DNA of 64,000 nt from Bacteroidaceae bacterium (lineage in GTDB: Bacteria; Bacteroidota; Bacteroidia; Bacteroidales; Bacteroidaceae), in contig JAIKWU010000079.1 of NCBI GenBank assembly GCA_024684455.1, positions 120,489-184,488 of the forward strand, in the 5' to 3' direction. Of this stretch, positions 8,620-50,671 are shown in pieces. Every line of letters starts with the position of its first letter. Position 1 is the stretch's first letter. The notes under the pieces were generated by a model. It saw nothing but the letters and a program-made list of their open reading frames with translations, was not told the origin of the DNA and did not search any database. Made by a program: the position numbers and the translations under genes.

Positions 8620-8628
8620 TTTTTTCCA

Positions 8629-27848: not shown

Positions 27849-30800
27849 TCAGCGCATCAGCACTTTCTTTCCGTCGATGATGTAGAGTCCTTTCGTGGGC
27901 TGTGCGACACGACGTCCGCTGAGGTCATAAATGGTACTTTGTACATTGTTCTTTGTACTTTGTACATCCTCGATGCCTGTCGGTGTCTCGCCGTTGAAGA
28001 AAATGATGCCGCGCGTGGAGGCATCGTCGGGCGTGTCGAGCACGATATAGGCGTGCAGACTCTTGAGTGACGGCGTGGCGGTGTCGGCAACGTAGAAGGC
28101 TGGTACATTCAGGACGTAACTGGTGTGTCCTGCTTCGACAGCCTGCGTCACGTCGAAGTTGGCTGCGTAATTGCCTGAGAAACGTCCGCCTGTGAACGGT
28201 GTGCTATAAGCGGCACCACGTTCGAGCGTCACGCCCGTCACATTATAGGTATGGCTGTCGCTGACGGATGCCGGCGTGAGGAGGAAGGGGACATTGGCGG
28301 TGGTCGTATAGACCCTCTTCGTCTGCAGTTCCGTGCCGTCGTAGCCTGTGATATTCTCGATGAGCGTACCCGTTCCGAAAAGTGTGCGTATCGTGTTGGA
28401 ATTGAGGGCGAAGGGAAGGATGACAGCGTTGCGTTGTCCTGGCTGGAGGGTGCATTTCAGTGTCACATCGGTCTTGCCTGCCTGGAAACCATCGATATCT
28501 TTGTCCTCATCGATGACGACTGGCTTCGACGTCACGTCTTCCAGCATGACGCTGCGGAAGTAGTCAATCTCTTCCTGCGGAATCTTCAGCGTGTTAAGGA
28601 AGTAGTTCTCAAACTTTTCGGTCAGCGTGGTTCCCTCCAATGCATCAATCACAGCGATGCGGTCACTCCATTTGTCCTTATAGCGAGCACCGGCAATCGA
28701 ATAGGAGGTCAACTCAAAGTCCTTGAAGATGGCATCGAAGCCGAGGCCGAGAATACCTTCCTGCAACATGGCCCAGAGGCCTGTGCGGTCAGCACCCCAT
28801 ACGCAGTGGAAGTAGAGGGCCTTGCCGGCGCGAAGGGTTTTGAGCGTGAGTGCCCATTCTTTACGCCAGTGCTCAATCGACTCCTCTTTGTTGAGGTCTT
28901 CGGGCAGCCAGTCGTTGCCGTTGGCGAAGTAGAAGGTGTCGGAGAAACCGAAGGGCGAGTGGCCGGCAGAACTACTGCTCTCGCCATCCCAGCGCAGGTC
29001 GATTTCGGAAGCGATGCCGAGATTGCGCAACACCTGCAGGTCGGCTGCATTGGCGGTGTGGTCGCCGTTCAGTTCCGAGCCACGGTAGATGTGGCCATAC
29101 GTCACACGCTTGGTGCGGTCGTCTGTGAGCCAGCCGCCGAGGTCGCGGATGTTGTTGCCCGTGGGTGCATAGATCATGCGCAGACGGCCTTCGGTGTGGA
29201 AACAACCCTTCTTGCGTGTCGTTCCGTCAGCAACGACGCGGAAATAGTAGGTGCGCTGTGGATAGAGATTAGGAATGTAGCAGTCGGCGCCAGGGAGCAC
29301 ACGGCGTTGTGTCGAGGTGGCAAACGACTTGTCGTCGCTAAACTCCACATAGATGTTCGTAGCATCGCTGATGCCTACCGGTATCATCACGGGGTTGGGC
29401 GTGTCGCGACGTTGCGGCGGAGTCATGCTCCGGTAGTTGTCGATATAACTGTCGCCCGACAGAAAATAGGAAACCTCGGAGAGGAACTTGCGTGCACTGA
29501 AGTTCTCCAACGTGGCGGTGAAGTCCATGCGCTGCGGCTCGACCACGTAGAACGGGAGCGACGTGGATGCTGTGAGCGACGATCCTTTTGCCTGCAGCAG
29601 GTACTTCCACGTGTAGTTGACTTCGCGGCGGTTCTCCTTGATGTAGAACGACTGCAGCCAACCGCCGTTCCACGGCAGGAGGTAGATGTCGGGCTTCACA
29701 GGACTGAGCGTCACGATGCCGAAGTCTATGGCGTCGGTTGTCTCGTAGGGCTTGACGACGCAGGGAACGCCAGCACGCACATGACTGACGGGATAGATGA
29801 CAGCGGTCTTGTCTTTGAGTCCGCCGACACAGTAGAGTTCAGCAAAGTCGTCGGTCGTAATGTCGAAGGGCACACACAGCGGCATAAGCGTGCCTGCCGT
29901 GAATTTCTTCTGGAGGGTGACATGTGCCTTGGTGGGTATGCTGACGGTGTATTCTGTGTCATTGTCCGATAGCGTCACTTCGGGTACATCATCACCGTAG
30001 AAGAGACGGAAGTTGCCGAAGAAGGTGCGGTTGTACGTCAAGGTCGTCGGGTCGATGCGGATGCCCAGCGGAACGTCGCTTGCGGCATCGAGCGTCAAGT
30101 CAACACCTACCCAATAGTCGCCATATTCGAACGAAGTGGGCGCGGAAGCCGAACTGGTGGGGAAGGCCCGTCCTTCCATCGTGGACTGCATACCGCTGGT
30201 GCGTGTCGTGGCATAGCGACAGCCTTCCATCTGGCTCGGCAACTTGACCGACTGGTCGCCCAAGTAGAGCGAAGCCTTCACTTCTTCGATGCCGTTTTCA
30301 TAGTTGCGTACCGAGGTGACCACATCGGTCGGACGATAGAAACCTTGTGCCATCAGGGTGTAATGACCGGCAGGCAGACCCTTAACCACCTGTTCGACGG
30401 TGGCTGTGAGGCGTGTGTTCTCTGCATGACCTACACCGGCAGCCGTCGTCTTCAGATTGGCATTCTTCGCCGTCCATCCGCGTGAACCTTGTGTCATGTC
30501 GGCGTTGGTGATAAGTGCCGTGAGTTCGTAGTTCCCATTGGCGGCAGGATAGTTCTTCACCACGTCAAGCACTGCTGTGCGCACCTCATCGAACACCACC
30601 TCTGCATCGGCATCTGTATCGATGACGCGCAGACGGTTCTGTGCGTCTTGATAGACGACTGCAAAGCCCTCGTGTCCACCCGATGCCTGCTCAACGATAC
30701 CAGCCAGTTTGTCGAGTTGACGGAGGTAGCGGTTGTCAACGGGCTTGATGTCGCCGTAATAGTAGAGTCGTGCATCGACCCACGTCATCCAGTTGAACGA

Positions 30801-31823
30801 GGCATTCTTTGTCTCGAAGCCGATGGTCAGTTTACCGTCAGTGCCTACTTGAGCAATGGCGGAATAGGTGTCGTAAAAGCCTTTTCCGACGAGGCTGCCG
30901 CCAGTGATTTCCACACCTTCGGTAATGGGTACGGACTGTGTGCCGCACAGCATGGAAAGGCCTGAAGCAGTACCATCGAAGTCACCGTTTTCGTCATAGA
31001 CACGCACCTGTGAACGGAACTCATACCAACCTGCTGGCAGGCTGGTGTAGGAAGATGTGATACGGGCATCGCCCAGTTGATAGGCCGGCCCCGTCCAATA
31101 GTTCAACTGTGCAGCCTCAAACTGGCTCACATCCATATTATTGGTTGTCGTGGGGAAGACACCGTGTGTGTGGGCAGTCGTTTCCACAAAGTCCCAATGC
31201 GCAGATGAGAATCCGTTCCAGTACTCCACGAGTTGTGGAAAATGGCCAGTCTGACCTTCGCCGAGATGTTGGCGATAGGCTTCGGTTTCGCCGAGGTAGG
31301 AAAGACGGAAGTGGTCGCACTTGAACCAACTGGCCGACTTCATGCCGAGTTTCACATAGTGTGTTGTGGCATCGACGAAAAAGTTCAGTTGAATCTCCTC
31401 GAGCGAACTCTTGTGCTGTGGCACAACGGAGACTTGTGCTTCGTTGGCATAGAGCCATACTGGCGTGTTGACACTGGTGTAGGTGTTCGAAGCCACCATG
31501 GCTACGAGCCGGTATTCGCCGGCAGGCAGCCCTGTCAGTTCTTGCTCCACAAACTGGTTGGGGCAGCAGAACACATAGTTGTCGCCCTGCGTCCATGTGT
31601 TGAACATGTAACTGCCGTTGCAGTTCGACACGGTATAGACGGCATCCGAATTGGGACGTACACCGATGTCGCCTTCAATCCACGACTGTGTCCATCCTGT
31701 CAGGTCGCCCGTCTCGAACGATGGGTTCACAATGCGGTCAGTAAAGTCCTGGACAGTCTGAGCCACAGAGGTGAATGAATTCAACAAACACACGCTCAGC
31801 AAGAAGGAAATCACTTTCTTCAT
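27849..31823 (-). CDS. Giant secreted protein with tyrosine-phosphatase-like domain (PTP-1), C-terminal tail
   Basis: Signal peptide; NIRDLGGWLTDDRTKRVTYGHIYRGSELNG and FHCVWGADRTG (CX5R); tail IYDLSGRRVAQPTKGLYIIDGKKVLMR. Confidence 0.82.
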   Translation of the reverse strand: MKKVISFLLSVCLLNSFTSVAQTVQDFTDRIVNPSFETGDLTGWTQSWIEGDIGVRPNSDAVYTVSNCNGSYMFNTWTQGDNYVFCCPNQFVEQELTGLPAGEYRLVAMVASNTYTSVNTPVWLYANEAQVSVVPQHKSSLEEIQLNFFVDATTHYVKLGMKSASWFKCDHFRLSYLGETEAYRQHLGEGQTGHFPQLVEYWNGFSSAHWDFVETTAHTHGVFPTTTNNMDVSQFEAAQLNYWTGPAYQLGDARITSSYTSLPAGWYEFRSQVRVYDENGDFDGTASGLSMLCGTQSVPITEGVEITGGSLVGKGFYDTYSAIAQVGTDGKLTIGFETKNASFNWMTWVDARLYYYGDIKPVDNRYLRQLDKLAGIVEQASGGHEGFAVVYQDAQNRLRVIDTDADAEVVFDEVRTAVLDVVKNYPAANGNYELTALITNADMTQGSRGWTAKNANLKTTAAGVGHAENTRLTATVEQVVKGLPAGHYTLMAQGFYRPTDVVTSVRNYENGIEEVKASLYLGDQSVKLPSQMEGCRYATTRTSGMQSTMEGRAFPTSSASAPTSFEYGDYWVGVDLTLDAASDVPLGIRIDPTTLTYNRTFFGNFRLFYGDDVPEVTLSDNDTEYTVSIPTKAHVTLQKKFTAGTLMPLCVPFDITTDDFAELYCVGGLKDKTAVIYPVSHVRAGVPCVVKPYETTDAIDFGIVTLSPVKPDIYLLPWNGGWLQSFYIKENRREVNYTWKYLLQAKGSSLTASTSLPFYVVEPQRMDFTATLENFSARKFLSEVSYFLSGDSYIDNYRSMTPPQRRDTPNPVMIPVGISDATNIYVEFSDDKSFATSTQRRVLPGADCYIPNLYPQRTYYFRVVADGTTRKKGCFHTEGRLRMIYAPTGNNIRDLGGWLTDDRTKRVTYGHIYRGSELNGDHTANAADLQVLRNLGIASEIDLRWDGESSSSAGHSPFGFSDTFYFANGNDWLPEDLNKEESIEHWRKEWALTLKTLRAGKALYFHCVWGADRTGLWAMLQEGILGLGFDAIFKDFELTSYSIAGARYKDKWSDRIAVIDALEGTTLTEKFENYFLNTLKIPQEEIDYFRSVMLEDVTSKPVVIDEDKDIDGFQAGKTDVTLKCTLQPGQRNAVILPFALNSNTIRTLFGTGTLIENITGYDGTELQTKRVYTTTANVPFLLTPASVSDSHTYNVTGVTLERGAAYSTPFTGGRFSGNYAANFDVTQAVEAGHTSYVLNVPAFYVADTATPSLKSLHAYIVLDTPDDASTRGIIFFNGETPTGIEDVQSTKNNVQSTIYDLSGRRVAQPTKGLYIIDGKKVLMR
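27935..27969. repeat. 7-nt-period array in frame in the PTP-1 tail linker (tactttg tacattg ttctttg tactttg tacatcc)
   Basis: Read directly; encodes DVQSTKNNVQST before IYDLSGRR. Confidence 0.8.
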
Positions 31824-32084: not shown

Positions 32085-35000
32085 TTATTTTACATAAACT
32101 TTTTTACCGTTCACAATGTAAAGACCACGGGTAGGCTGCCCGACACGACGTCCGCTGAGGTCATAAATCGTACTGGGTGCGTCGTCCTTGATACTTTGTA
32201 CCTGGTCTATGCCCGTGGCTTCGCTGTCGAAGGTCACAATGCTCTTCACACCGCTGGCCGGCGTGTCGAGCACGAGGTAAGCGCGAGTGCTCTTCATTGG
32301 AGCAGCCGTCTCATTGATGACGTAGAACTTGTCGTTCGAGATAACGTAGTTCTCCTTGCCGTCAACAGTCGATTTTGCTACGTCCATGGCGGCATAGGTG
32401 CCGACCATCTTGCCGTTCGTAAACACTGCATCGGAGAGTTCGCCCTCAACCATCGTCACTTCGTCGAGCACATAGGTATTGTCGCTACGGGGTTCGGTGG
32501 GCACGAGCAGGAAGGGCTTGTTTGCCGGAGCAATGTCGGTGTCCTTGGTGATTGCCTCTGTCTTCAGCACGCCATCTTCGTAGGAGACGATATTCTCTAT
32601 CTTAGTGCCCTTGCCGAAGAAATCCTTGGCTTTCCACAAATCCAGGTCGCAAGGCAGGACAACGGTGTTGTGCTTATCCGCCTTGAGCGTGCGATGCAGG
32701 GTGATATCGGCCTTGCCATTGTAATAGGCAGGCACGTTGGCATCCTCGTCGATGGTGAGCGGATAGACTTCGAGCATCACGCTACGGAAGTAGGTGATGT
32801 CGTCCATAGGAACGCCAAGTTTGTTCAGGAAGTAGTTTTCAAACTTGTCGCGCAGGGTGGCACCTTCAAGCGCGAGGATGACGTCGATGCGGTCCTGGAA
32901 CGAGGTCTTCAGACGGTTACCGGCAACTGAGAACGAAGTCAGTTCGTAGTCCTTGTATATCTGGTCGATCGTCAAGCCGAGCAGGCCTTCGAGCAGGAAG
33001 GAGAGCATACCCGTGCGGTCGGCACCCCATGCACAGTGGAAATAGACAGCCTTGCCCTGACGGAAGTGGTTGAGGATGAAGTCGAACTCCTGCTTCAGAC
33101 GCTGCTGAGTGCCGCTCTCATTGAGGTTGGCAGCCGTGTAATCATTGGCAGCGGCAAAGTAATAGTCATCGCCTGTAAAGCCGAAGGCGGAGGTGCCACA
33201 GCCCATGTCCTTGTCGTGGTCAGACTTCCAGCGGAGGTCGATTTCGCCACCCACACCAAGGTCGCGCAGTGTCTGCAAGTCTTCGGCAGTGGCACTAAAG
33301 TAGCCGTTGAGCGTCGAGCCACGGAAGAGGTGACCGTAGGTAGTGCGGTGTCTATCCTGCGTCTCCCAACCACCGAGGTCGCGGATGTTGTAGGCCGACG
33401 GTGCATAGACCATGCGCAGGTGACCCTTCGTATGGAACTGACCTCGATAGCCAGTGCTCGCCTCGAAGTACTCGAATTTATAGGTCTCCTGTGGCAAGAG
33501 GTTATAGACGTAGGCTTCTGTGGCTCCAGCAGGAACCATGATGCGTACCACCTCTTCAAAATTGCTGTTCTGTATGATGATTTCTATTTCATCGTTGTGA
33601 GCCGGCAGCGGTATCATTACGGCATTGGGAATGTCACGGCGTGTGGGAGGAGCCACGTTGTAGGCCGCAACCTCAGAGGCTTCGCTGCTGCCGCTGTAGG
33701 ATACTAAATTAAGATACCTGCGTGCAGCGAGGTTCTCCATATTGACATCGAACTCCATGTCATTGAAGTCAAGCACAACCTTTCCTATCTCTGCATCTGG
33801 ATGGGAATTTCCATCCATGCCGTAGTAGGTCCAGGTGTCGTTAGCAGCATTCACCCTGGCCCAGCCGCCAGCCCACGGCATGACGAACTTCTTGCCGTTG
33901 GTCAGCGTCATCTCCATCGGAGCGCTGTAGTTGGCGATGCTGAACTTGGCATAGCAAGGCGTGCCGGCTGGCACGGTGTTGACAGGATAGATAGAGAGGC
34001 TACCCTCAGACTCCTCACCAGCAAGGGCGTAGAGTTCGTCAATATAGTCGTCGCTGACGTCGAGTGTGAACGGAGCGCAGACAGGTGTGAGTTCGTCGGC
34101 AGCGTTGTTGAGGGCCACCTGCGGAACCTCACCGATGTACCAGAGTTTGAAGTTATCGACAGCCGTCCAAGCCTTCGTGTTGGCACAGCGATAGCCGATG
34201 GTGACAAGGGCATCGTCGGCCAGCACACCGATGAGCGTGTTGGGATAGTGCCCAGCCTGCAGATATTTGTTGGCTGCACTGCTACCATTCGGAATGAAGA
34301 AGGAAGCACCGCTGGGCTGTTCGCCACTCAGACTGTTGTTTGTCGTTCCCTGATAGTCGAACAGGTTCATCACCAGTTGCTCGTTGCCGTTGAGGTAGAT
34401 GGCTCCAGTGACGATGCTGTTGCCAGACTGGTAGTCAGCCCAAGCATCATTCATCGGGTCGTTCGTACGTTCGAAACCATCGACCGTCATCTTGTACGCA
34501 CCGGCAGGCAGCATGTAGGGCAGCGTCTGTCCGAGGTCGAACGAACTGTTGTAGTAGCGCATCACGCCGTTGGTCACGCCGACGGTCGTCGATGAGGCCA
34601 GTGTCTCTGTCCAGTACGCCTTGTAGTTCGTATCGCTGAAGTCGGCATCCTGAATCATCCACGTGAGGTCAAAACCTTGCCCCTCGTTGATGGTGACGCT
34701 CTTCAGGAATGTGAGGGCCGCGGCCCAGAGGTTCTGCTTCTCTGCTTCGAGCGCAGCCACGCTGCTGACGTTCTCCACATTGGTGTTGGCCGTGGAGAGC
34801 GCACTGCTGTAGTCGCTGGCGGCTGTGCCTTCGTCGGTATAGACGGCGGTCTGGTCGATGAAGCGCTCTTGAATCATCTGCCGCATGGTCTTGTAGTCAG
34901 CATACGGTTCGACGTAGGGCTCTGCAACGGCCACTGCTGCGTTGATGGCGGCGATGGCGGCCTGATAGTCCTCTGCGGTGGTGTAGGTCTTGTTGTTCTG

Positions 35001-37220
35001 CTGAATGACGTCGGTCAACTGGCGACGAGGCAACGTCGGGATGACGAGGTTTTGTGCCGCACTAACTGTCTGTGCGAGTTGTTCCTGCCAGGCGCTGAGG
35101 TCGAGCGGACCGCGGTAGTAGAGGTGGAAGTCAGACAGGCAAGCCCAGTTGTTAGCAGCATAATTTTCAATTTTGAATCCGATAGTCACATCTCCTCCGT
35201 TGAGCGTTGCCTCCAGTGTGTTCAAGTAGTTATGTGCTGCAAAGTAGTCGTCAAGGTGTGAGCGTGAATTGGGAATGTAGATAGTGTTGCCATTCACGGT
35301 GGTAGAACTGCCGCCGCTCGATGGTTGGGCACTCATACCACCCTCGACAATGTTCATAATCTTTACGCTGGCATCGTTCAGGAAAAGATAAGTGTCATAA
35401 TCGCGTCCTGAGACACTCGACATGTCAGAAGCATGGTTGCCGATACGCTGAAATGCTTCCACTGTAGCGCAATAGGCACCTGCGGGCAGTCCTTGCAGCG
35501 TCTGTTGGATGATGATATTATTACGCAGTTCCGTGATGGAATATTTGCCAAAGTTCAGCACAGAGGCGGGATCGACATCCCATCCCATCGGGCTGACATT
35601 TGTAAAGACGGCATTGGTCAACAGCGAAGTAAGGTCGAATTGTGCTCCGTCGTTGATGGTGACACTTGACATCAGTGATGCCAATGCAGGACGAAGTTGA
35701 GCCTGCTGTGTACCAATAGTAGTGACAGCCTCGCTCAATGCTGCCCCCTGAATGGCTACATCGACGGCGTCAACAGCAGCATTGAATGTAGAAACGGCAC
35801 CATCAGGATCCGTATAGACGTTCTGGGCACAGATGGCCTCCGCCGTTGTCTTCTGTGCTTGATATGCTGAGTAAGCCGCAGACACAGCCTGAGCCGTTGT
35901 AGTTGCATCGGCGATGGCATCGATGGCTGCCTGATAGTCAGCCGATGTCGTATAAGTCTGGTTGTTAGCCGATACGATAGACGCAAGGTCGGCTGCTGCC
36001 TGTGTGGGAAGCGGTGTGACAGCCTGTGCATTTGCCACGGTAGTAGCCAACTGGGCTTCGTATGCAGAAAGGTCTTCAGCATTATAGTAATAAGTAAGAC
36101 GTACGTTATTGAAGCATATCCAGTTAGGATAATCACCTGCTGCATAACTTGGCACGGCAATCGTCAGAGCCAGATTGCCGTCACTGCCCACGTAGGTATA
36201 GACCGTGTTCGTATATTTCGTTCCTTCGTTAAACTCGTCCTTGATATTTCCTCGCGAGGTAGGCTTGGAATGATTATCGGTACTGATGGCATACCAGTCC
36301 TTGATGAGCACCTGATTGTCATTAGCCTTGAAGTAGGCGTTTGAGAATACATAACCGTCATTTCCGTATGTCTGGCAGCGTGCCAGCACCGAAGCTCGGT
36401 AGAATGCCTGCACTTCCACTTTGTACAGACCTGGCGTGAGTCCCGTCACAGTCTGCGTTGTCATGGACTGACCTCCGGCAGCATTCTGAATCTGATAGGA
36501 ACCGTTCGAGATGGCTGTGCCCTGAATGTTGTTCACCGTCCATCCATCGGTGTTCAAGTACATCGTCGGATTGGTGATAGCGTCCGTCTTGTCCATCGAT
36601 GCCATGCTGGCAATAGCCGTCTCCAAGTCGCTCACACTCGATGCCGTGATACCAGCCTGAGTGGCCACGGCTGCTGCACGTGCATTGGCGGCAGCCGTCA
36701 CAATCGATTGTTGTTGAGCAGGCGTGAGGAATTCCCAGACGGCAGCGTTGGCAAGACCGTCAACGAGCACCAGTTCATCGTTCGCATCAATAGCGACGTA
36801 GTAGCCCTGCGTGGCATAAGCCACCTGATTGGGCTTGTAGATACAACGGATGACGAATTGTCCGCTCGCTACCTCTGTAACAGCCCATTTGTGGTAACTC
36901 GAGCCGGCACAGTCCAGACCATCCGCCACGACACGCAGAAAGCGACCATAGTAGTCGCCCATCTGGAAGCGGATGTAGTTGTAGGTGGCATCCGAAAACT
37001 CGCCGACACTTGAGCCCTCGTTCTTAATCTCCACAGGTACGCCATATAGGTCCACCTTCGCACCGCTGTTCGATACAGTTGTTACGCCGTGGCTCAGGAA
37101 CTTGCCTGTTGCAGGGTTGTAGAAATAACCCTTCGTTCCGTCGGCAGGAATGGATGCAGTTGCTGTTAACGAAACCAGCCAGCACAGAACGGCCGATAAA
37201 AGCAAATGTTTCTTGTTCAT
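32085..37220 (-). CDS. Giant secreted protein with tyrosine-phosphatase-like domain (PTP-2), C-terminal tail
   Basis: Signal peptide; helical repeats (YEAQLATTVANAQAV..., YTTSADYQAAIDAI); NIRDLGGWETQDRHRTTYGHLFRGSTLNG and FHCAWGADRTG; tail IYDLSGRRVGQPTRGLYIVNGKKVYVK. Confidence 0.82.
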   Translation of the reverse strand: MNKKHLLLSAVLCWLVSLTATASIPADGTKGYFYNPATGKFLSHGVTTVSNSGAKVDLYGVPVEIKNEGSSVGEFSDATYNYIRFQMGDYYGRFLRVVADGLDCAGSSYHKWAVTEVASGQFVIRCIYKPNQVAYATQGYYVAIDANDELVLVDGLANAAVWEFLTPAQQQSIVTAAANARAAAVATQAGITASSVSDLETAIASMASMDKTDAITNPTMYLNTDGWTVNNIQGTAISNGSYQIQNAAGGQSMTTQTVTGLTPGLYKVEVQAFYRASVLARCQTYGNDGYVFSNAYFKANDNQVLIKDWYAISTDNHSKPTSRGNIKDEFNEGTKYTNTVYTYVGSDGNLALTIAVPSYAAGDYPNWICFNNVRLTYYYNAEDLSAYEAQLATTVANAQAVTPLPTQAAADLASIVSANNQTYTTSADYQAAIDAIADATTTAQAVSAAYSAYQAQKTTAEAICAQNVYTDPDGAVSTFNAAVDAVDVAIQGAALSEAVTTIGTQQAQLRPALASLMSSVTINDGAQFDLTSLLTNAVFTNVSPMGWDVDPASVLNFGKYSITELRNNIIIQQTLQGLPAGAYCATVEAFQRIGNHASDMSSVSGRDYDTYLFLNDASVKIMNIVEGGMSAQPSSGGSSTTVNGNTIYIPNSRSHLDDYFAAHNYLNTLEATLNGGDVTIGFKIENYAANNWACLSDFHLYYRGPLDLSAWQEQLAQTVSAAQNLVIPTLPRRQLTDVIQQNNKTYTTAEDYQAAIAAINAAVAVAEPYVEPYADYKTMRQMIQERFIDQTAVYTDEGTAASDYSSALSTANTNVENVSSVAALEAEKQNLWAAALTFLKSVTINEGQGFDLTWMIQDADFSDTNYKAYWTETLASSTTVGVTNGVMRYYNSSFDLGQTLPYMLPAGAYKMTVDGFERTNDPMNDAWADYQSGNSIVTGAIYLNGNEQLVMNLFDYQGTTNNSLSGEQPSGASFFIPNGSSAANKYLQAGHYPNTLIGVLADDALVTIGYRCANTKAWTAVDNFKLWYIGEVPQVALNNAADELTPVCAPFTLDVSDDYIDELYALAGEESEGSLSIYPVNTVPAGTPCYAKFSIANYSAPMEMTLTNGKKFVMPWAGGWARVNAANDTWTYYGMDGNSHPDAEIGKVVLDFNDMEFDVNMENLAARRYLNLVSYSGSSEASEVAAYNVAPPTRRDIPNAVMIPLPAHNDEIEIIIQNSNFEEVVRIMVPAGATEAYVYNLLPQETYKFEYFEASTGYRGQFHTKGHLRMVYAPSAYNIRDLGGWETQDRHRTTYGHLFRGSTLNGYFSATAEDLQTLRDLGVGGEIDLRWKSDHDKDMGCGTSAFGFTGDDYYFAAANDYTAANLNESGTQQRLKQEFDFILNHFRQGKAVYFHCAWGADRTGMLSFLLEGLLGLTIDQIYKDYELTSFSVAGNRLKTSFQDRIDVILALEGATLRDKFENYFLNKLGVPMDDITYFRSVMLEVYPLTIDEDANVPAYYNGKADITLHRTLKADKHNTVVLPCDLDLWKAKDFFGKGTKIENIVSYEDGVLKTEAITKDTDIAPANKPFLLVPTEPRSDNTYVLDEVTMVEGELSDAVFTNGKMVGTYAAMDVAKSTVDGKENYVISNDKFYVINETAAPMKSTRAYLVLDTPASGVKSIVTFDSEATGIDQVQSIKDDAPSTIYDLSGRRVGQPTRGLYIVNGKKVYVK

Positions 37221-37771: not shown

Positions 37772-40700
37772 CGTATCAGAACTTTTTGACCGTTAATGAT
37801 GTAAAGGCCCTTCGGAAGCATTGACCATTGACCATTAACCATTGAGAGCTTACGCCCCGCAAGGTCATAGATTTCACTCTCATCTCTCAACGCTCCGCTC
37901 TCAACTAACTGGATGCCCGTAGCAGTTTCGTCAATCTCGATGGCGAGTTGCTTGACGCTGCTGCCTGTGGTGTTGACAAAGTAGGAACGGAAGGGGTTAA
38001 GGGTGATGCTGCCAGAGGTCTTCCAGAACTTGTCCTGGGCGATGTAGTAGGCATTGGCATCGGTTACGGTCTGTGCGGTATAACTGCCGACAAGGCTCCA
38101 TCCGTCGCAGTCGTCGGCAGTGGAGGCCGACGTGGTCTGACTGACGCCAACCGACGTGGCACTGAGCGTGACTCTCGTGGCACTCTCGTCGAGTCGGCGG
38201 AAGACAGCAGGAGTGTTGGCAGGCACACTGGTGGCGGGAGTGAACTTCATGGAACTCTCGATGACGGACGATAGTGTGTAGTACTGCACGGCATCGTTCG
38301 AAGAAATGGCGTATGGTACCAATACAGTGCCCCACTTGCTGCTCATGTCGCGCGAATATGTGGCATTGGCAGCACTGAAGGCCTTAGGAACTTCGAGCGG
38401 CGTCCCGTCAGTAAGGACGAAGTTCTGGCACTGTCCGTTGGCCACGACGTTGTTCTGTGTAGAGACGAACTGCGTGGCTGTGGCGGCATAGATGACCTGG
38501 TTCTTGTTGCGAGGATAGAACCGCACACCGACGGCTTGACCGTAGAGGGCAAGGTCAGCATTCGTTGTGTAATCGACGTAGGCAGCATCACGTCCGCCCC
38601 AGAAATAGTCCTGACGCAAATAGGAGGCATCAGTTTCCTGCTCAGCAGCAGTGTCGCTAATGAACTGGAGGTGAACGTTCTTCATCTGGATATAACTCTT
38701 CAGGGCACGGATGCCGAAGAACACCGAGTTGGTGGTTGTTGTGGCGGCACAGGTGTAGGTGCCGAAAGCGCGTGCAGCACCTGTGTTGCGCGTGCTGACC
38801 TGTTCGCTGGCACCGACACGTTCGCCGATGATGAATGCCACCATGTCGGCTGCATCGCCCGAGAAGTCTGTGCCAAGGTCAACGCTGAGGCGATAGGTGC
38901 CATTAGGCAGACCCGTGACGTTCTGGTTGATTTCCAAGTCGTTCAGCGTGGGATACCAGATGTTATAGACATTGGCTCCGTCCTGTGTACGAATCCACAC
39001 ATCACCGCCTCCGTCCACACTCTTGATGCCCATGTTCCAACCGTAGGGAGCCTCGTTGTTGAGGGTTGTGTTGCTGAGGTTGGCATTGGCAACAAACTGC
39101 GTGGCATCCTGTCCTGCCTCAGCGATAGCAGCACCGTTGTTCAGGATGGTGATGGCCGTGGCAATCTCGGCATCGGTCTTCGTTTCGTACTCAGCATCCG
39201 TCCACTCATATTGCGCAAGGGCTGCCGTGGCAGCACCGCTCCCAGATGTCTCGTACTGGTCGCGGGCTTCCTGGCACCTTTGCAACGCAATCTCATAGAG
39301 GTTCACCTCCTCGACTTCTGCTCCGTAGCAATAGAGGAAGGCATTGTCCCAAGCCACCCAGTTGGCATCGGTACTTTCGATGAAGAGACCAGCCGTCACG
39401 TTGCCCTTGTCCGTGGCAGTGAATTTCTCAGTCGTGAAGTATTCAGGCGCACCATTGCCCGTGTGGCAAGCAACCGTCTTGTCGCCCAGGCGCAGCGTCA
39501 CGCCACTCACACTGAGCGAAGCGTTGTTCTGGCGTACGGCATTGACGGCTGCACGCAATGCATACGTACCCTTGTAGAGATAGATGCTCTGCGTGGCACT
39601 CATGTTGGCCAAAGCACCTTCCGACCCCGTCCACGACTCCATAAAGTCAGGATCGAAATTGTCGTAAGTGGCCCCCTGTTTCCAAAGGTTACCGTTGAGT
39701 GTCCAGCCCGCCAGGTCGCTCTCCATACGAGGGTTCGTCAGGAGTGGCACACGGATAGGATTTGCAGCCGAGGCCAGTGCGTAGTAGGATTCTTCGGTGC
39801 CTGCCCAATAAAGGAACAGGTTGTCAACGCCCACCCAGTTGGCAGTCGTCATGTCGGTCTTCATACCGAAGGTGAGAGTGCCGTCAGTCACAGTGACTTT
39901 AAGGGCGTAGATCTCGGGAACGCCGTTGCGTGTTCCGAGGCTGACAGCCTGGTCGCCTGCCCAGAATGTGACACCCTCGACTTGGGAGCCATCCCCACCC
40001 TGTGCCGTGGCCATGAACGAACCGCCGATATAGTAGGTACCGTTCTGCAATTCGCGGATGGTTTGCTGGAAGCCACCGTTGTCAAGCATGTTGTTAGACC
40101 CCGTCCAGCGTTCGATGAAGGGTGCAGCCATGGCTGCACCGTTGCTGCCAGTGTATTCGCCCCAAGTGCCTATGGCAAAGCCGTTGTTCGTATATTCACC
40201 GAGCGAAGCGGTCGAGAGCCACGGAGCGTAGGCATTGGTGAGGTCGTAGAAGTCCTGGCCTGCTGCAGCGTTCTTTACGGTGCTGTAGGTGTAGTCGGGG
40301 GTGTTCAGATAGCGGTAGAGGCGGAAGTCGTCAGCCTTGTACCAACTGCCGGCATTGACGCCGATGGAGAGTTTTCCGTCAGAACCGACGGTGATGCCGT
40401 CGATGCTGACTTCCTGCAGATAGTATTTGCCACAATCGTGAGCACCGGTAGTGACGGTCTTGTCGCCTGCAAAGACGGTCACGGTGTTGCCTGGATCGGT
40501 GGCGACTTTGGCTGTGAGTTTGTAGGTACCTGCAGTGAGTCCGCTGACGGTCTGACTGACGCCGTCGCCCACGTCGCCACTCTTCCAACTGTCGAGCACC
40601 ATGTTACCATCGGCACCGACAGCGCGATACCAGTCCACATTGGCATCGCGACTGAATTGTCCGCCGCCGAGCGTCCATCCAGTAGGCGTATTGTTGTTAT

Positions 40701-42198: not shown

Positions 42199-42438
42199 TG
42201 TGATAAGATAAGGTGTTAAACAAAACTCTCGCAAAGTTATGGATAAAATTTCAAAACACCATCCCTTTAAGTGTATTTTGAGCGATTTGTGGTATTTTTT
42301 GATTGATTATTCTCCAACGAAAAAGGTTGAAATAAAAATGGCTGAAAAAAAATGGGGATAAATACTAAAAGAAATTGGGATAATTTAAGATAAATTTTGC
42401 ACTTCGTGCACATATATATAAGAATAATAACTGTGGAA

Positions 42439-42638: not shown

Positions 42639-45600
42639 TTATTTGCAGAGCACTTTTTGGCGGTTCACAATGTACATTCCCTTCGTAGGAGCACTGACAC
42701 GACGACCGCTGAGGTCATAAATTGGTAAATTGTTCATTGTTAATTGTTCATTGTTCATTGTCTCAATTCCCGTGGCTTCGCCGTCGAAGCGGACGATGGG
42801 TTTGGCTTCGCCACTGGTGGATGTGTCGAGTGTAAGGTAGGCGCGGGTGCCTCGCATCGTTCCCGACTCGTCTCCGACGAGGTAGAAGCAGTCGTCGCTG
42901 ATGACGTAGTTCTCTCTCCCTGCCGCGGTACTGCGACCGACGGTAGTGGCTGCTGCATAGGAGCCCTGCATGGTGCCGCCGCTGAAGGTGTAGGCGGTAG
43001 GGGTTCCGCTGCGGGTAAGAATGCCACTGAAGTCATAGGTGTTGTCGCTACGGAGTTCGGTGGGCACGAGCAGGAAGGGCACATGGGCGGTGGTGCTGCT
43101 GAGGGTTTCTGTGTTGAGTAGACCTGCCTCAGCGTCATAGTCGGTAATCTGCTCGAGCACACTGCCGCTTCCGAACACTTGCTCGGTCTGGGCGGCGGTG
43201 AGGTCGAAGGGGAGGACGAGGGTGTTGTGCTTGTCAGCCTTCAAGGTGCGGATGAGCCGTGCGGCGGTGATGTTGGCCTGCTCAACCGTGTAGTCGGCAC
43301 TCTCGTCGAGGGTGGCAGGGTGCAGATTGAGACGGAAGTTGAACTGGCAGGCGCGGTGCTTGCCGGCATCGTCGGCCGGCGCCAGCATGAGGACCGAGCA
43401 GACGTAGGTGCCTGCCTGACAGGCGCCGGGACGCTGACCGTGACCGAGTTTCAGCGTGCCGCCGTCGATGTAGAACCCCTCGATGTTGAGAAAGATGCGG
43501 GCCGTGGCTTCGTTCCAAGTGGGCTGGTTGTAGAGTGTGCCCGGAGTTCCGTCGGTGTTCTGATACCAGAAACCTTTGGCGTCGCTGGCGTTCTTTGCCC
43601 GGCTGATGCTGCTGTCGTCGAGCGGCGCATACATCATGTCGAGTTTGAATTGGCTGATTGGCAACTGGAGCAGTGTGGGCACGTCGCCGCCGGCACTGAG
43701 GCCCGTGACGTTGTGCGTGGCCCACTCGTCACGAACAGGGAAAAAGTCGATGTCGATGTCCTGCGTGTGGACGATGTTGAGGTCGCTCTTGCTGACCACG
43801 ACGGGATAGGCCTCGACGGTGGCCTTGTCGATGGTGCGTGGCATCCAGACCTGCATGTATCCACGTCCACGGTTGTTCCATGCATAGTAAGGAACGAGTG
43901 TCAGCGTGGCATCGGCCGTGGTCTGGCCTCTCTTCACCTGACCTGTCACGTTAATGCCCTTGAACGTATAAGCAGCAATGCTGGCGTCGATGACGGTGGC
44001 CTCAGCCTCGTCATTGCAGATGAGGGCAGAGAAGTTGTCGGGATTGTCGATGCCTTCCATGCAATAGACGACAGGTCCGCGTTCGACGGCAACCAGTCCC
44101 TGGTCGGCAGCGACAGCGTTGTTGGCAATGACGTGCTGCACAGGCATCGGCAGGCTGAAGGTCACTTCGTCGCCTTCATTCCATGTGCGCTCAATGGTCA
44201 TGTAGCCGTCCTGCAGGGTGTAGGCGACGGGAGTGCCGTTCACCTTGACCTCGATGTCGGCGTGTGTGCCATCGACATAACTGTAGAGGTCGCTGGGCAC
44301 AGGCTCACCCTTTGCCCAACCTGGCAGACGGAGCATAAGGGTAAGATTCTTCTCACTCAAACCATCAACATTAAACCCTAAGCGTATATCTCCATTCCAA
44401 GGATAGTCGGTCGTCTGCGTGAGGTGCAGCGTGCCACGTGAACCAAGGTCGATGTCGGCCGTGCCCTGCATGTATAGGTTCACATAGACCTTGTCGTCCT
44501 TATGGGCGTAGACATAACCAGGCACGGAGGCGATGAAGCGGCAGAGGTTGCTCGGACAGCAGGCACAGCCGAACCACGGCTCACGCTCGGCCGAACGACC
44601 ATTGTAGCCGTTGCCGTCGCTGGCCAGCGGATTGGGATAGAAGAAACGGTTGCCGTCGAGGTTGATGCCTGAGATGACACCGTTGTAGAGCGAACGCTCG
44701 AGCACATCGTAGTATTTCGACTCGCCATGCAGCAGGAACATGCGCCAGTTCCAATAGACGTTGGCAATGGCGGCACACGTCTCGCAGTAAGCCTCCTTGT
44801 TGGGCAGTTCGTAGTTCGCACCGAAGGACTCGCCCGCATGGCGCGCACCGATGCCGCCGTTGATGTAGAACTTCTTCTCAGCCACATTGCTCCAGATCTT
44901 GTCAATGGCCGAGAGATAGGCCTCATCGCCCATGATGGCTGCCACGTCGGCCATGCCGCTATACATGTAGGCGGCACGCACGGCATGTCCCACGGCCTCG
45001 TCTTGCATCACCACGGGCTTGTGGGTCTGGCTGTACTCCTGGCGCATCACGCCGCGAGCACCACGCAAGTCGAGGAAATATTTCGCCAGACGCAGGTAGT
45101 CCTCCTTGCCTGTGGCACGGTAAAGTTTCACGAGACCCATCTCGACAATCTGGTGACCAGGCTCATACGTCAGACCTCCTTCGAGGAAGTCATGAACAAG
45201 CAGGTCGGCATTCTTCGTGGCGATGTCGAGCAGCGACGTCTTGCCCGTCGAGACATAGTGCGCATAGGCAGCCTCATAGAGGTGACCCGCATTGTAGAGT
45301 TCGTGCGACAGGTCAGGGTCTTTCTCCCAGCGGTTCTGCCCCACCCATCCGTGCATACCCGCAGGGTTGCCAGCCGTACGCGGCGTGTAGAGATAGCCGT
45401 CGGGCTCCTGAGCCGCACCCACGATGGCGATGAGTTCGTCCATCTTTGCCGAAATCTGAGCGTTGGGCTTCACCTGCACACTGTAGGCCATGCCCTCGAG
45501 AATCTTGTAGATGTCCGTATCGTCGAACGTACACTCGGTGTCGAAATAGCCGATGTTCTCACCGCGCAGAATGGCTGCAGCCTTCTGAAAGTTCAGCACG

Positions 45601-47489
45601 CGGTTGGAGTTGTAGCACTGCTCGATGGCAAAGGGAATCGTCACGGTCTGGTTCTGCTCCATACGCGGTTGCCAGAACTGGTCGGTCAGGTGTACCCGTG
45701 CAAAGTCAACGTTCTGAATCGGATAATCGCCATAAGTTATAGTCACTTCCGTGCGGTGACCCAGTGCTTCCCATTCAGTCACGCCCACGCCGCTATACGT
45801 CGAGCCGTTCGATTGTGCCTGTATGAAAAGGCGCAATTGCTTAGTCTCCACAGGCTCAAAGCGTACGCTGCTCACCTCGGTGCGGCTCTGTGTATAGGCC
45901 TCGCCGGCGAGCAAGGTCACATCTTTCCACATACTGCTTGCTTCGTCCCAGTACTGCACCTTCCATGATGCAGGCAGGACCACATGGTCGCCCGGCACGT
46001 CGCTGTCCGTCCACCATGCCACACGCACACGTTCCACCGTCTGCGGCTCGTTCCAGCCGTAGCGCAACCAGTGGTCACGCGTGCGGTTCGGATCCCATGT
46101 GTTCCAATGCTTGTTCTCGGGCAGTTCGCCAAAGCCGAGGATGCCGTCGTTCACCGTGTAGAGCGAAGTCGTGGCGTGGGTGAAACTGGCTTCCAGTTCC
46201 GTAGCGTCGTAGGCCAGGTTGTCCAGTGCTTCGGGCAGGCCGCCCACATAGTCGGTCGTCGTGCCCAGCATGATTTGGATGAATTCATTCAAATCGTCCA
46301 GCGTGACATGAGCATGCTGGTGCCAGTAGTTGATGAATTTTTGTTGCAATGTCTCGCCATCGAACGTCTTGACATACGTGACGATGGGTTCTACCTTTGC
46401 TTTCGTTCGTGTTTCACCTTCTGGGAACGAAAGCGCTGTCAGTTCATATTCTTGATAGAGGTCTTCCTCGGACAGACCCAGCAGACCTTCGAGCATGAGG
46501 GCCAGTGTACCTGTGCGGTCGGCACCCCAGATGCAATGGAAATAGACAGGATTGCCTGCACGCAGGTTCTTCAGGATGAAGTCGAAGTCGGCGCGATAGT
46601 TGGCCCATGCCGTACGCACACCGTCGAGGTAGAAAGGTTCATTCACCACGCGCAGGTAGTCAACGTCGTTGCCCAGCGGCGACACCTTTATATTTTGTGC
46701 CTGCGCATGCGTGCGTAAGTCGAGTTCGGCACGGATGCCCACTTCGTCGCGCAGCGTCTGCAGGGCAGCCTCCGATGCCGTGTATTTTTCGCCCTGCAAC
46801 TCACAGCCGCGGAACAGTTTGCCGTACTGAACGGTCTCGCCGCGTGCCGTGGTCCATCCACCTAAGTCGCGGATGTTCTGCAAACCGTCGGCATTGACCA
46901 CATGCACCCATTCGGGGGCTTCTTCGTCAGACCCTACCACGTTGAGCGTCAGGTCCATCTCGACGGCTTTGGTGCCGTTGACGGCATAGAATACCGTGTG
47001 GTAAGTATCGCCAATTCTCGAGGTGTAGGCATTGTTATAGACACCTGCCTGACCTGTCCAGATGATCAGGTTTATGTCGTTGTCAGTCACAGGCTGGATG
47101 AACCACCAACTCTGTCCGCCCCACGACGAACGGTAGCCGTTCTTGTCATACCAGTTGTCGTTGTTGTGGCCGTAGGTTCCGTCGCCTGCGAGCGGGAAGT
47201 AGAGCATGTTGTTCACGTTCGACTTCGTTACGGTCGTGCCCAGCAGCGCCGACAAGTCACTGTAGGGAATGGGCAGCACCGTATGGTCGTATTTGGTGTT
47301 GGGGTTCTGCTTGGCGTTGAGCACATAGCGCACAGCCACCTGCAGCGTCTTCGACTCTGTCTTGTAGGTGAACGGTACCTGGAGCGAAACCTCCTCGCGG
47401 GTCACAGTGGGCACGCCGATGACTTCGTCGGCCCACACGCCTGTCGTCGTGACAAGCAACAGCAACATCGTTGCCAAAATCTTATTCAT
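42639..47489 (-). CDS. Giant secreted fusion: tyrosine-phosphatase-like domain (PTP-3) + discoidin-like domain + GH127 (beta-L-arabinofuranosidase-like) + tail
   Basis: NIRDLGGWTTARGETVQYGKLFRGCELQG and FHCIWGADRTG; DQFWQPRMEQNQTVTIPFAIEQCYNSNRVLNFQKA, DGYLYTPRTAG, FGCACCPSNLCRF (GH127); tail IYDLSGRRVSAPTKGMYIVNRQKVLCK. Start taken at 47489. Confidence 0.85.
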   Translation of the reverse strand: MNKILATMLLLLVTTTGVWADEVIGVPTVTREEVSLQVPFTYKTESKTLQVAVRYVLNAKQNPNTKYDHTVLPIPYSDLSALLGTTVTKSNVNNMLYFPLAGDGTYGHNNDNWYDKNGYRSSWGGQSWWFIQPVTDNDINLIIWTGQAGVYNNAYTSRIGDTYHTVFYAVNGTKAVEMDLTLNVVGSDEEAPEWVHVVNADGLQNIRDLGGWTTARGETVQYGKLFRGCELQGEKYTASEAALQTLRDEVGIRAELDLRTHAQAQNIKVSPLGNDVDYLRVVNEPFYLDGVRTAWANYRADFDFILKNLRAGNPVYFHCIWGADRTGTLALMLEGLLGLSEEDLYQEYELTALSFPEGETRTKAKVEPIVTYVKTFDGETLQQKFINYWHQHAHVTLDDLNEFIQIMLGTTTDYVGGLPEALDNLAYDATELEASFTHATTSLYTVNDGILGFGELPENKHWNTWDPNRTRDHWLRYGWNEPQTVERVRVAWWTDSDVPGDHVVLPASWKVQYWDEASSMWKDVTLLAGEAYTQSRTEVSSVRFEPVETKQLRLFIQAQSNGSTYSGVGVTEWEALGHRTEVTITYGDYPIQNVDFARVHLTDQFWQPRMEQNQTVTIPFAIEQCYNSNRVLNFQKAAAILRGENIGYFDTECTFDDTDIYKILEGMAYSVQVKPNAQISAKMDELIAIVGAAQEPDGYLYTPRTAGNPAGMHGWVGQNRWEKDPDLSHELYNAGHLYEAAYAHYVSTGKTSLLDIATKNADLLVHDFLEGGLTYEPGHQIVEMGLVKLYRATGKEDYLRLAKYFLDLRGARGVMRQEYSQTHKPVVMQDEAVGHAVRAAYMYSGMADVAAIMGDEAYLSAIDKIWSNVAEKKFYINGGIGARHAGESFGANYELPNKEAYCETCAAIANVYWNWRMFLLHGESKYYDVLERSLYNGVISGINLDGNRFFYPNPLASDGNGYNGRSAEREPWFGCACCPSNLCRFIASVPGYVYAHKDDKVYVNLYMQGTADIDLGSRGTLHLTQTTDYPWNGDIRLGFNVDGLSEKNLTLMLRLPGWAKGEPVPSDLYSYVDGTHADIEVKVNGTPVAYTLQDGYMTIERTWNEGDEVTFSLPMPVQHVIANNAVAADQGLVAVERGPVVYCMEGIDNPDNFSALICNDEAEATVIDASIAAYTFKGINVTGQVKRGQTTADATLTLVPYYAWNNRGRGYMQVWMPRTIDKATVEAYPVVVSKSDLNIVHTQDIDIDFFPVRDEWATHNVTGLSAGGDVPTLLQLPISQFKLDMMYAPLDDSSISRAKNASDAKGFWYQNTDGTPGTLYNQPTWNEATARIFLNIEGFYIDGGTLKLGHGQRPGACQAGTYVCSVLMLAPADDAGKHRACQFNFRLNLHPATLDESADYTVEQANITAARLIRTLKADKHNTLVLPFDLTAAQTEQVFGSGSVLEQITDYDAEAGLLNTETLSSTTAHVPFLLVPTELRSDNTYDFSGILTRSGTPTAYTFSGGTMQGSYAAATTVGRSTAAGRENYVISDDCFYLVGDESGTMRGTRAYLTLDTSTSGEAKPIVRFDGEATGIETMNNEQLTMNNLPIYDLSGRRVSAPTKGMYIVNRQKVLCK
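42728..42762. repeat. 7-nt-period array in frame in the PTP-3/GH127 tail linker (aattgtt cattgtt aattgtt cattgtt cattgtc)
   Basis: Read directly; encodes ETMNNEQLTMNN before LPIYDLSGRR. Confidence 0.85.
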
Positions 47490-47548
47490 TCGTACCATAC
47501 TATAAATTATGAAAGCATTTTAACTTTTAATTTTCAATGACTCTACTC

Positions 47549-47887: not shown

Positions 47888-50671
47888 CTATTCTGTGCTT
47901 CGACGTACCTCGCTGGGCAGCATACCTGTCACTACGCGGAACACATGGGCGAAGTGTTCACGGTCGCTGAAACCAAGACGACGTGCCACATCGGCCACAG
48001 TAGCAGTACGCTGCTGAAGCATCTCACGGGCCGCTTCCATCTTGATGTTGCGGATGAACTGTAGTGGTGTCTGGCCAGTAATGGCCTTGAGTTTGCGTAC
48101 GAGTGTCGAACGCGACATATTCATGCCCTCGGCCAGGTCGTTGACACCAAAATCCGTCTCGCTCAAATGCTGACCTACAATGTCGCGGGCTCGGTCGAGC
48201 AACATCTGGTCAAGAGCGGCATAGGCAGACTGGGTGGGCTGCAACGTCGGCGCTGCTACATAGTCGTGCATGGCAACCAGTGCAGCACTGTCTTGCCAAA
48301 GGGCTGCCTCGGCGCGACGCGACCTACGCATGAAGTAGCGGACAACGAGCACGAGGAGCAACACACCACCTATTATATATAAAAGGAATGCGAGGGTCGT
48401 TTCGTACCAGTAGGGCTGACGACTGAAGCAGAACGTCGTCACCTCGCTGCTCCAAAGGCCGTTCGGGTCGGTAGCCCGCAGGAGGAGTTGATGTTCGCCA
48501 CGGGCGATGCGAGGCAGGATGAGAGAGTTGGCACCGATGCGCAGCGATGTCCACGGACCGTCGTCGAGCCGATAGGCATAGCGCTGGCTGACAGCATGTA
48601 GGTGGTCGAGCGACGAGAAGTGGATTTCGATGTCACGGGCATCGGCAGAGAGCGGCTGACTGACGGGGACGCTCATGCCTTCAACGCGCAGGTCGGTGAC
48701 AACGACAGGGACGGGACGTGCCATGCCTTCAAGTTGGAGCGAAGGATGGCAGACGAGAAAACCGTCGAATCCACCCACCAGCACTTCACCATCTGCTGCG
48801 ATACTAAGAGCGCGAGGCATAAATCGAGACAGCGAAAGAGTCTGGTTCGTACTGATGACACGATAGACGCGGCTGTGAGGATCGAATTCGGTCAGGCGAC
48901 TGTTGGTCAGTATCCACAGGTGATTGTATGGGTCGCAGACTATCTTTTCGACCATGTCGCCATTCATGCCAGCGGCTTCGGACAGGTCGTCAAAGTGCGA
49001 CAGGTCGCCACGGCTGCTGAGCAGACGGCCGTCGCCTGTGCCTATCCACAGCGTTCCGTCAGACATCGAAGCGATGCAGAGGAGGTCGGTAGGAAGCGAG
49101 TGGAGTGTGTGCAGACGTTTGTTGCGGAGGATGGCAATGCCACGGCCCGTGACGGTGGCATAGACAGTGCCGTCCTGCGTCTGTGTGAAACTGGTGGTAT
49201 GTCCGAGAGGCTGACCTGCTTCGTCAGTAATGACAACTAATTCATGAGTAGCAGGTGTGTAGCGAAAGATGTCGTCGTAAGTACCAATCCAGAGAGTGCC
49301 GTCGTGATCTTCAAACACAGTCTTGGCATGTTGTCCGTCAGGCAGTCGGACACTGTGTGTGAGACGCATCTGCATACCGTCGGAGGCCACTCCATAGACA
49401 TAGTCGGTGGCTGTCACGGTCCAGACTTGATGAGGTACGGACGAGGGCATCAGTTCGTGGACAAAGTCGAGACGGGACGAAGCCGTCGAAGGACAGTCGG
49501 CATAGGTTACCAGTTTCCCCGTGTGAAGATCATAAAGACCAAGCCCTACACGTTCCTGCGAAACCCAGTAGCGACGGTCTGCATCATGGCTGAGCGACAG
49601 AAGCAGAGTCGAACGGTGGAAACGCTCCTGAATGGGCGGCAGGCTGTAACGCTCGCGGTTGAATGTCTCGAAGTCGATGACCATGCTTTGGCGGTCATAG
49701 CCTGCAATCCAGATGCTGCCGTCGCGGGTACGGATGAGTTCGTTCATCATCTTCATGTCAGACGTGTATCCACGGAGGTCATGAGCAAGGTCAACGGCAC
49801 GCAGCGTACCTGTGCTGTCAATGTCGAAGGCGTGCAGGTCGTCGAGCGATGTAGCCCAAAGACGGTGTCCATTCTGCTCGGGAACGACATAGAAGAAGTG
49901 GCGGATGGGGTGTCCGATGGCATTATGGACCTCGGGCTGGACAACGTAGCGGCCGGCGTTAGGATGTGCCTTCATATCGAGACGCACCATGCCACGGTCG
50001 CGAGTCGTCAGCCAAAGATAGCCGGCGGCTTCTGCCAAGTCGCTTACAGGCAGATGTGTAGCGATGCTGTCGAGAGGTGTCCATTGGTGTCTGGAAGGTT
50101 CGTAACGACACAGTCCTTTATTGTAGAATGCCGAGAGAAGCGTACCATCAGCCGTCTGGAAGAAGCGCGCAGCGACATCAGCAGCGGTTTTGACGGGCTG
50201 CTGGTCCCGACCGACGACATAAGTGGCGTGCGCTGTCGAGAGAAACACCGTGCCATCTGAGCGGCAGAAGATTTCCTGCACCTGCTTCTTTCCCAGAACA
50301 TCGGGACAATAGGGCTGCACCGTATAATCAGTCTTGTCGATGAAGAAGGCTCCCGAGGGTGTGCCGAAGAGGATACGGTGGAGGCTGTCCTCAGCGATGC
50401 AAAGGATGAGGTTACTGCGCAGCGGTGCTGGATGGAGATAGTCGTTGCGGAACACACGAACGTCGTAGCCGTCGTCGCGACACAGCCCATCGACAGTGCC
50501 ATACCAAAGGTAGCCTTCGGTGTCCTGCATGATGCGGTGGACACTGAGCACGGGCAAATGTCTTGCCTGCGGTCCCAGTGACTGCAATGTGGCGACTTGG
50601 GCAACCGTTTGTCCGAAGACGGCTACCATCAAAACGACACAGAGTATCTTACACTTCAACACGAATGACAC
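47888..50671 (-). CDS. Membrane-anchored SusR-like regulator: periplasmic propeller + Y_Y_Y domain + TM + AraC HTH, no kinase or receiver domain
   Basis: Repeated Reg_prop-like GxLWYGT/GxLWIGT motifs; LRATDPNGLWSSEVTTFCFSRQPYWYETTLAFLLYIIGGVLLLVLVVRYFMRR; AraC HTH MSRSTLVRKLKAITGQTPLQFIRNIKMEAAREML...VADVARRLGFSDREHFAHVFRVVTG. GTG start. Confidence 0.88.
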   Translation of the reverse strand: MSFVLKCKILCVVLMVAVFGQTVAQVATLQSLGPQARHLPVLSVHRIMQDTEGYLWYGTVDGLCRDDGYDVRVFRNDYLHPAPLRSNLILCIAEDSLHRILFGTPSGAFFIDKTDYTVQPYCPDVLGKKQVQEIFCRSDGTVFLSTAHATYVVGRDQQPVKTAADVAARFFQTADGTLLSAFYNKGLCRYEPSRHQWTPLDSIATHLPVSDLAEAAGYLWLTTRDRGMVRLDMKAHPNAGRYVVQPEVHNAIGHPIRHFFYVVPEQNGHRLWATSLDDLHAFDIDSTGTLRAVDLAHDLRGYTSDMKMMNELIRTRDGSIWIAGYDRQSMVIDFETFNRERYSLPPIQERFHRSTLLLSLSHDADRRYWVSQERVGLGLYDLHTGKLVTYADCPSTASSRLDFVHELMPSSVPHQVWTVTATDYVYGVASDGMQMRLTHSVRLPDGQHAKTVFEDHDGTLWIGTYDDIFRYTPATHELVVITDEAGQPLGHTTSFTQTQDGTVYATVTGRGIAILRNKRLHTLHSLPTDLLCIASMSDGTLWIGTGDGRLLSSRGDLSHFDDLSEAAGMNGDMVEKIVCDPYNHLWILTNSRLTEFDPHSRVYRVISTNQTLSLSRFMPRALSIAADGEVLVGGFDGFLVCHPSLQLEGMARPVPVVVTDLRVEGMSVPVSQPLSADARDIEIHFSSLDHLHAVSQRYAYRLDDGPWTSLRIGANSLILPRIARGEHQLLLRATDPNGLWSSEVTTFCFSRQPYWYETTLAFLLYIIGGVLLLVLVVRYFMRRSRRAEAALWQDSAALVAMHDYVAAPTLQPTQSAYAALDQMLLDRARDIVGQHLSETDFGVNDLAEGMNMSRSTLVRKLKAITGQTPLQFIRNIKMEAAREMLQQRTATVADVARRLGFSDREHFAHVFRVVTGMLPSEVRRSTE

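Follow-up and report, generated by a model that had tools for sequence, protein, structure and literature searches.

A predicted secreted protein of rumen Bacteroidaceae and Prevotellaceae fuses a PTP-like phosphatase to a GH127 glycosidase

Introduction

The glycosidases of family GH127 are polyspecific, and the characterised relatives of the enzyme described here release beta-L-arabinofuranose. The zinc site of GH127 is of the Cys3-Glu type, and one of its members, BT3674, works with exo-galactanases on larch arabinogalactan (PMC10850190). On the side of the phosphatases, the closest described family is that of the MptpB/LipA-type atypical lipid phosphatases (ALPs), in which the Asp of the P-loop is the catalytic acid and the preceding Lys binds phosphoinositides, and whose members are described as consisting of the phosphatase domain only (PMC3091653). 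Multi-modular, secreted and T9SS-linked enzymes of rumen Bacteroidetes are represented by 'Candidatus Paraporphyromonas polyenzymogenes', which the present case resembles; that account concerns cellulases (PMC5831590), whereas in the fusion reported below the partner is a phosphatase. The fusion lies in a stretch of 64,000 nucleotides, analysed as a whole and called the window in what follows.

Architecture of the fusion

A single ORF encodes, from the N- to the C-terminus, a signal peptide, a beta domain, a PTP domain, a CBM32/discoidin-like domain, three GH127 domains, a DUF4859-like region, a C-terminal module and a T9SS-like tail. Its parts, in window positions, are as follows.

42639..47498 (-), single ORF, PTP - discoidin/CBM32-like - GH127, 1619 aa, ATG start, uninterrupted frame
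47430..47498 (-), putative signal peptide (residues 1-23), by inspection of MVRMNKILATMLLLLVTTTGVWA
46923..47429 (-), beta-rich N-terminal domain (residues 24-192), beta strands in the structure model, kept in orthologues
46254..46907 (-), PTP, atypical Y_phosphatase3 (residues 198-415), by Pfam, profile search and fold search
46509..46538 (-), P-loop H321-C322-IWGA-D327-R328-TG, by sequence comparison, role of the Asp from PMC3091653
45759..46199 (-), discoidin/CBM32-like domain (residues 434-580), by Pfam below cut-off, Foldseek and a 44% match to the discoidin stretch of L150
44520..45695 (-), GH127 catalytic domain (residues 602-993), Pfam E 2e-108, residues mapped on HypBA1
44145..44492 (-), GH127 middle domain, 127M (residues 1003-1118), by Pfam
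43839..44141 (-), GH127 C-terminal domain, 127C (residues 1120-1220), by Pfam
43323..43781 (-), DUF4859-like beta region (residues 1240-1392), weak, sub-threshold Pfam match at 1296-1366
42789..43334 (-), C-terminal module, from residue 1389, 39-48% identity to neighbouring PTP ORFs
42642..42731 (-), T9SS-like C-terminal tail (residues 1590-1619), by tail motif

Three neighbours bear on the comparison.

47888..50671 (-), AraC-type regulator with Reg_prop repeats, upstream and co-directional
32085..37220 (-), secreted PTP protein, 1711 aa, PTP at about 1270-1484, HCAWGADRTG
27849..31823 (-), secreted PTP protein, 1324 aa, PTP at about 883-1099, HCVWGADRTG

An earlier note on this DNA had reported one polypeptide carrying both a PTP and GH127, and this is confirmed by the intact frame, by the Pfam domains and by recurrence in other assemblies. 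The endpoint that it gave, 47489, is the second Met (codon 4) of the ORF, and both motifs that it quoted (FHCIWGADRTG and FGCACCPSNLCRF) are found in the ORF. The discoidin-like region that it placed between the two enzymes is likewise borne out by a Pfam match to F5_F8_type_C_2 slightly under its cut-off (residues 450-557, E 4e-5) and by fold matches; the Foldseek matches for a structure model of residues 1-603 include CBM32 and F5/8 domains, as expected for a linker, and with a mean pLDDT of 64 this model supports statements at the level of the fold only. The C-terminal module, said to be common to neighbours, is indeed found at the C-termini of the two PTP ORFs, with 48% identity over residues 1389-1618 and 39% over residues 1393-1618. 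A Pfam search of residues 24-192 gave no match, and this N-terminal beta domain is an undescribed family; homology with the DUF4859-like region was considered for it and is unsupported (hhalign probability 10%).

For the type A sorting domain (TIGR04183), the tail of the fusion gave no match, that of a sibling in the window E 0.09, and that of L150 E 8.5e-5. The genome encodes SprA, the T9SS translocon (SprA_N, E 3e-218), and the fusion is likely secreted via the T9SS. Elsewhere in the window, a C10 (streptopain-type) peptidase with an Inhibitor_I69 propeptide, a long C-terminal region and a T9SS-like tail lies between the PTP ORFs (37768-42234), and a large secreted DUF5013 protein (20255-24922) adjoins an ORF with a sub-threshold metallophosphoesterase match (18816-20216).

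The GH127 half

The catalytic, middle and C domains of GH127 all exceed the Pfam cut-off. The closest solved relative of this part is 6ex6 (E 3e-212), which we take to be BT3674, followed by 4qjy, 3wkw and others. C980, E890 and E906/C908/C980/C981 align one to one with C417, E322 and E338/C340/C417/C418 of HypBA1, and presumably C980 serves as the nucleophile, E890 as the acid/base and E906/C908/C980/C981 as zinc ligands; with all of these kept, the site looks intact. The fused enzyme shares with the GH127 beta-L-arabinofuranosidases BT3674 and HypBA1 (PDB 3wkw) the complete three-part unit, the Cys3-Glu zinc site and the acid/base, and differs from them in that the close PDB matches are chains of 648-698 aa without a PTP and that the fused enzymes form a separate clade. 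Because GH127 is polyspecific, L-arabinose would be the likeliest product rather than a certain one, and another sugar may be released instead. An identity as aceric acid hydrolase (NCBIfam NF049879) was rejected, the score being 463 bits against a cut-off of 950 bits.

In a tree of 37 GH127 domains, into which some genes enter twice, the fused GH127s form one clade (support 1.0); L112 in this clade represents the G010 gene, truncated at the limit of the retrieved region. The sister of the clade (support 0.999) is L150 from genome G268, a protein of 1528 aa with a matching discoidin stretch, a GH127 and a similar tail, and without a PTP. Stand-alone GH127 enzymes, including the genome's own paralogue (52% identical to the fused GH127), fall outside the clade. 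Since the fused GH127s are one clade and sister to a PTP-less discoidin-GH127 protein, such a protein probably acquired its N-terminal PTP one time.

The phosphatase half

Pfam places Y_phosphatase3 at residues 202-371 (E 5e-25). Profile and fold searches agree on the C. difficile PTP (8dhi/8dhj) and M. tuberculosis MptpB as the closest solved structures, 8dhj and 1ywf being the best solved fold matches. The CX5R motif with Asp at P-loop position 6 is present (HCIWGADR), Cys322, Asp327 and Arg328 being kept, and position 5 is Ala326 instead of Lys; the same Ala is found in both neighbouring PTP ORFs and in most secreted relatives. Across the PTP domains examined, the Cys, Asp and Arg are kept together with an N-terminal NIRDLGGW motif. 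The catalytic site thus looks intact, judging from these residues, and Ala326 speaks against phosphoinositides being the principal substrate. The CX5R motif, the P-loop Asp and the overall fold are shared with the MptpB/LipA-type ALPs and with 8dhi/8dhj; nevertheless, because the P-loop Lys is replaced by Ala326, we regard the fold as ALP-like and do not class the domain as an ALP. A further difference is that here the domain is a module of secreted proteins of 1000-2200 aa.

PTP-like phytases of the rumen Selenomonas type carry the P-loop HC(E/Q)AGxGR. This identity was rejected, as the P-loop here is HCIWGADR and no such phytase is among the three PDB profile matches; a full-text search of open-licence papers found nothing on PTP-like phytase together with rumen and Prevotella. 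We know of no activity for any PTP of the secreted HCxxGADRTG class.

Distribution and conservation of the fusion

Among 101 relatives, nearly full-length orthologues were found in G010 (81% identity), G007 (74%) and G055 (74%, a different genus); L145 is a further full-length orthologue, and the copy in G115 (L142) ends at a contig edge. A survey of 400 genomes of the bacterial family found the N-terminal 603 aa in 5, namely the window's own, G010, G007, G055 and G115, the last being counted although its gene stops at the contig end. In an order-wide sample of 395 genomes, this region was found solely in the window's own genome. A contig scan matched the uncultured Prevotellaceae RUG733 and RUG483 and the Bacteroidaceae MAGs Tb.RUG.125, RGIG5947 (sheep omasum) and RGIG6791 (sheep rumen); RUG733, RUG483, RGIG5947 and RGIG6791 are the same as G010, G007, G055 and G115, respectively. 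Counting the window, this analysis has five complete fusions and a sixth that a contig edge truncates, and the host group is rumen Bacteroidaceae/Prevotellaceae. The AraC-type/Reg_prop regulator is also beside or near the fusion in G007 and G010, and the orthologues in G007 and G055 lack the C-terminal module.

With its 98 contigs, the source genome is a fragmented draft, which could favour the view that two genes were joined by misassembly or by a frame error. However, the same complete architecture is present in four other MAGs, and because it recurs in independent assemblies, a chimera or frame error is excluded, with a residual chance that is practically nil. Compared with the orthologues by the Nei-Gojobori method, the PTP has a dN/dS of 0.08-0.12 and GH127 one of 0.04-0.12, so purifying selection acts on both catalytic parts, as expected of two functional domains. 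The earlier note did not recognise this architecture; it is rare, at the frequency given above, and a full-text search of open-licence papers found nothing pairing PTP with GH127. In essence, the pairing of PTP and GH127 is real, found in a few related rumen bacteria and apparently undescribed; known families are combined in a new way, and the enzyme is not of a new kind.

Sequence divergence along the gene is uneven. Window positions 43296-43745 (residues about 1252-1401) are 98-100% identical to G010 at the DNA level, with dS 0.04, against about 63-90% identity over most of the remaining gene and dS 0.6-1.0 elsewhere in it; this near-identity suggests that the lineages of the window and G010 recombined recently. 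In the neighbouring PTP ORF, positions 32612-35132 have 92.8% DNA identity to a PTP ORF of G010 over 2.5 kb, which is above their surroundings.

The phosphatase as a recurring module

Y_phosphatase3 matches were found in 100 of 251 genomes sampled from the bacterial family. Many are short stand-alone proteins, and another large group belongs to ORFs of 1000-2200 aa, the majority of which end in tails like YDLxGRR...KGxYIxNGKKVxVK. In 31 large PTP proteins scanned, LRR_5 repeats were found in 6 and NAGPA in 2, and most were without another recognised enzyme. Secreted proteins of 1000-2200 aa in the family repeatedly have the PTP as a module, which is far commoner than its GH127 fusion; a full-text search of open-licence papers found nothing on Y_phosphatase3 with Prevotella.

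NAGPA is a phosphodiester glycosidase. It occurs with LRR_5 and PTP within one secreted ORF in G196 (G196:C24), G209 (L091) and G235 (L095), and in G184 it lies in the ORF adjoining the PTP ORF. As in the GH127 fusion, a glycosidase and a PTP of the same class share one secreted ORF; the differences are that the glycosidase is a phosphodiester glycosidase, that the domain order is reversed and that the P-loop is slightly different (HCAIGRDRTG in L095). NAGPA with PTP is apparently a second, independent glycosidase coupling. A phosphodiester glycosidase followed by a phosphatase would be a sensible two-step removal of a sugar-phosphate link, and because this order makes sense, glycan phosphate is favoured as the PTP target. 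A full-text search of open-licence papers found nothing useful on NAGPA in Bacteroides or on phosphomannan use.

PTPs of the class are also found in phage. On the IMG/VR contig L147, a PTP ORF (7176-9521) lies shortly downstream of a tape-measure ORF and adjoins a weak tail-protein match, the viral contigs L148 and L149 (6277-10452) carry further PTPs of the same class, and the top three viral fold matches are proteins of about 600 aa from phages, named 'tyrosine phosphatase family'. A PHROGs search of the PTP proteins of L113, L147 and L149 gave no match, and the phage context comes from neighbouring ORFs. The end of the L149 protein resembles by eye an endonuclease/exonuclease/phosphatase-type domain, for which Pfam gave no match. 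In the window's own genome, L113 5556-8156 (G000:C35) encodes a tail-fibre-like protein of 867 aa that contains a collagen-like stretch and ends in a PTP, and that gave one weak match only against GenBank phages; it may belong with the phage tail-region PTPs.

Proposed function and alternatives

With moderate confidence, we regard the fusion as a cell-surface or released bifunctional enzyme, probably a cargo of the T9SS, whose PTP most likely targets phosphate groups of extracellular glycans or glycoconjugates. To judge from its characterised relatives, GH127 would free beta-L-arabinofuranose or a related sugar from plant glycans, and the PTP would hydrolyse phosphomonoesters through a Cys-phosphate intermediate with D327 as the general acid, as one of a set of family-specific extracellular phosphatases without the phosphoinositide-binding Lys. 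The CBM-like domain would anchor the two activities to the same material; that they share a single target molecule is a guess. The proteins with NAGPA and PTP and the phage tail-region PTPs make a phosphorylated extracellular glycan, taken broadly, plausible as the target. Against this explanation count the polyspecific GH127, the separate clade and the 52% identity to the paralogue, by which the sugar may not be L-Araf, as well as the unmatched T9SS tail model, the pLDDT of 64 and the differing P-loop of the NAGPA partners.

The earlier note had suggested a single phosphorylated arabinose-containing glycan, from which the PTP clears phosphate for GH127, or the reverse. The coupling itself has stood, since glycosidase and phosphatase are physically joined via the CBM-like linker and the pairing has a precedent in NAGPA with PTP. 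The arabinose part has not fared as well: the PTP is mostly found without GH127, GH127 acts elsewhere without the PTP, and the same PTP class is present in phage tail-region proteins, where arabinan is an unlikely target. We know of neither a phosphorylated arabinan nor a phosphorylated arabinose-containing glycan. We hold this specific substrate to be improbable, and the evidence agrees better with phosphorylated extracellular glycans as a general target.

Conceivably, the two halves act on unrelated substrates, the PTP being a phosphate-scavenging or signalling module (for phosphopeptides, inositol phosphates or nucleotides) shuffled onto a discoidin-GH127 protein, with which it would share only secretion or anchoring. 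The PTP does occur on many proteins with different or no recognisable catalytic partners, the sister lineage lacks it, and the C-terminal module is common to neighbours and missing from two orthologues. However, the fusion is retained across two genera with low dN/dS in both domains, and the apparently independent NAGPA coupling also speaks against this reading, so we consider unrelated substrates somewhat unlikely. That the PTP-like domain binds phosphorylated glycans without acting on them as an enzyme could be read from its deviation from HCXXGKDR (Lys to Ala), but the conserved Cys, Asp, Arg and NIRDLGGW and the low PTP dN/dS make this very improbable. Returning to glycan phosphate as the target, its widest form, in which the family-specific and undescribed HCxxGADRTG extracellular phosphatases dephosphorylate glycans wherever they are fused to GH127 or to a phosphodiester glycosidase, and also in phage tail-region proteins, is tentative and to our mind rather unlikely.

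Implications

At minimum, a phosphatase joins the parts list of multi-modular CAZymes. If these phosphatases do act on glycans, phosphorylated extracellular glycans would be a substrate attacked by single polypeptides in many herbivore gut bacteria, and GH127-PTP, NAGPA-PTP and phage PTP constructs would be a means to find that substrate. In that case, these bacteria and their phages would exploit phosphorylated glycans as a class of substrates.
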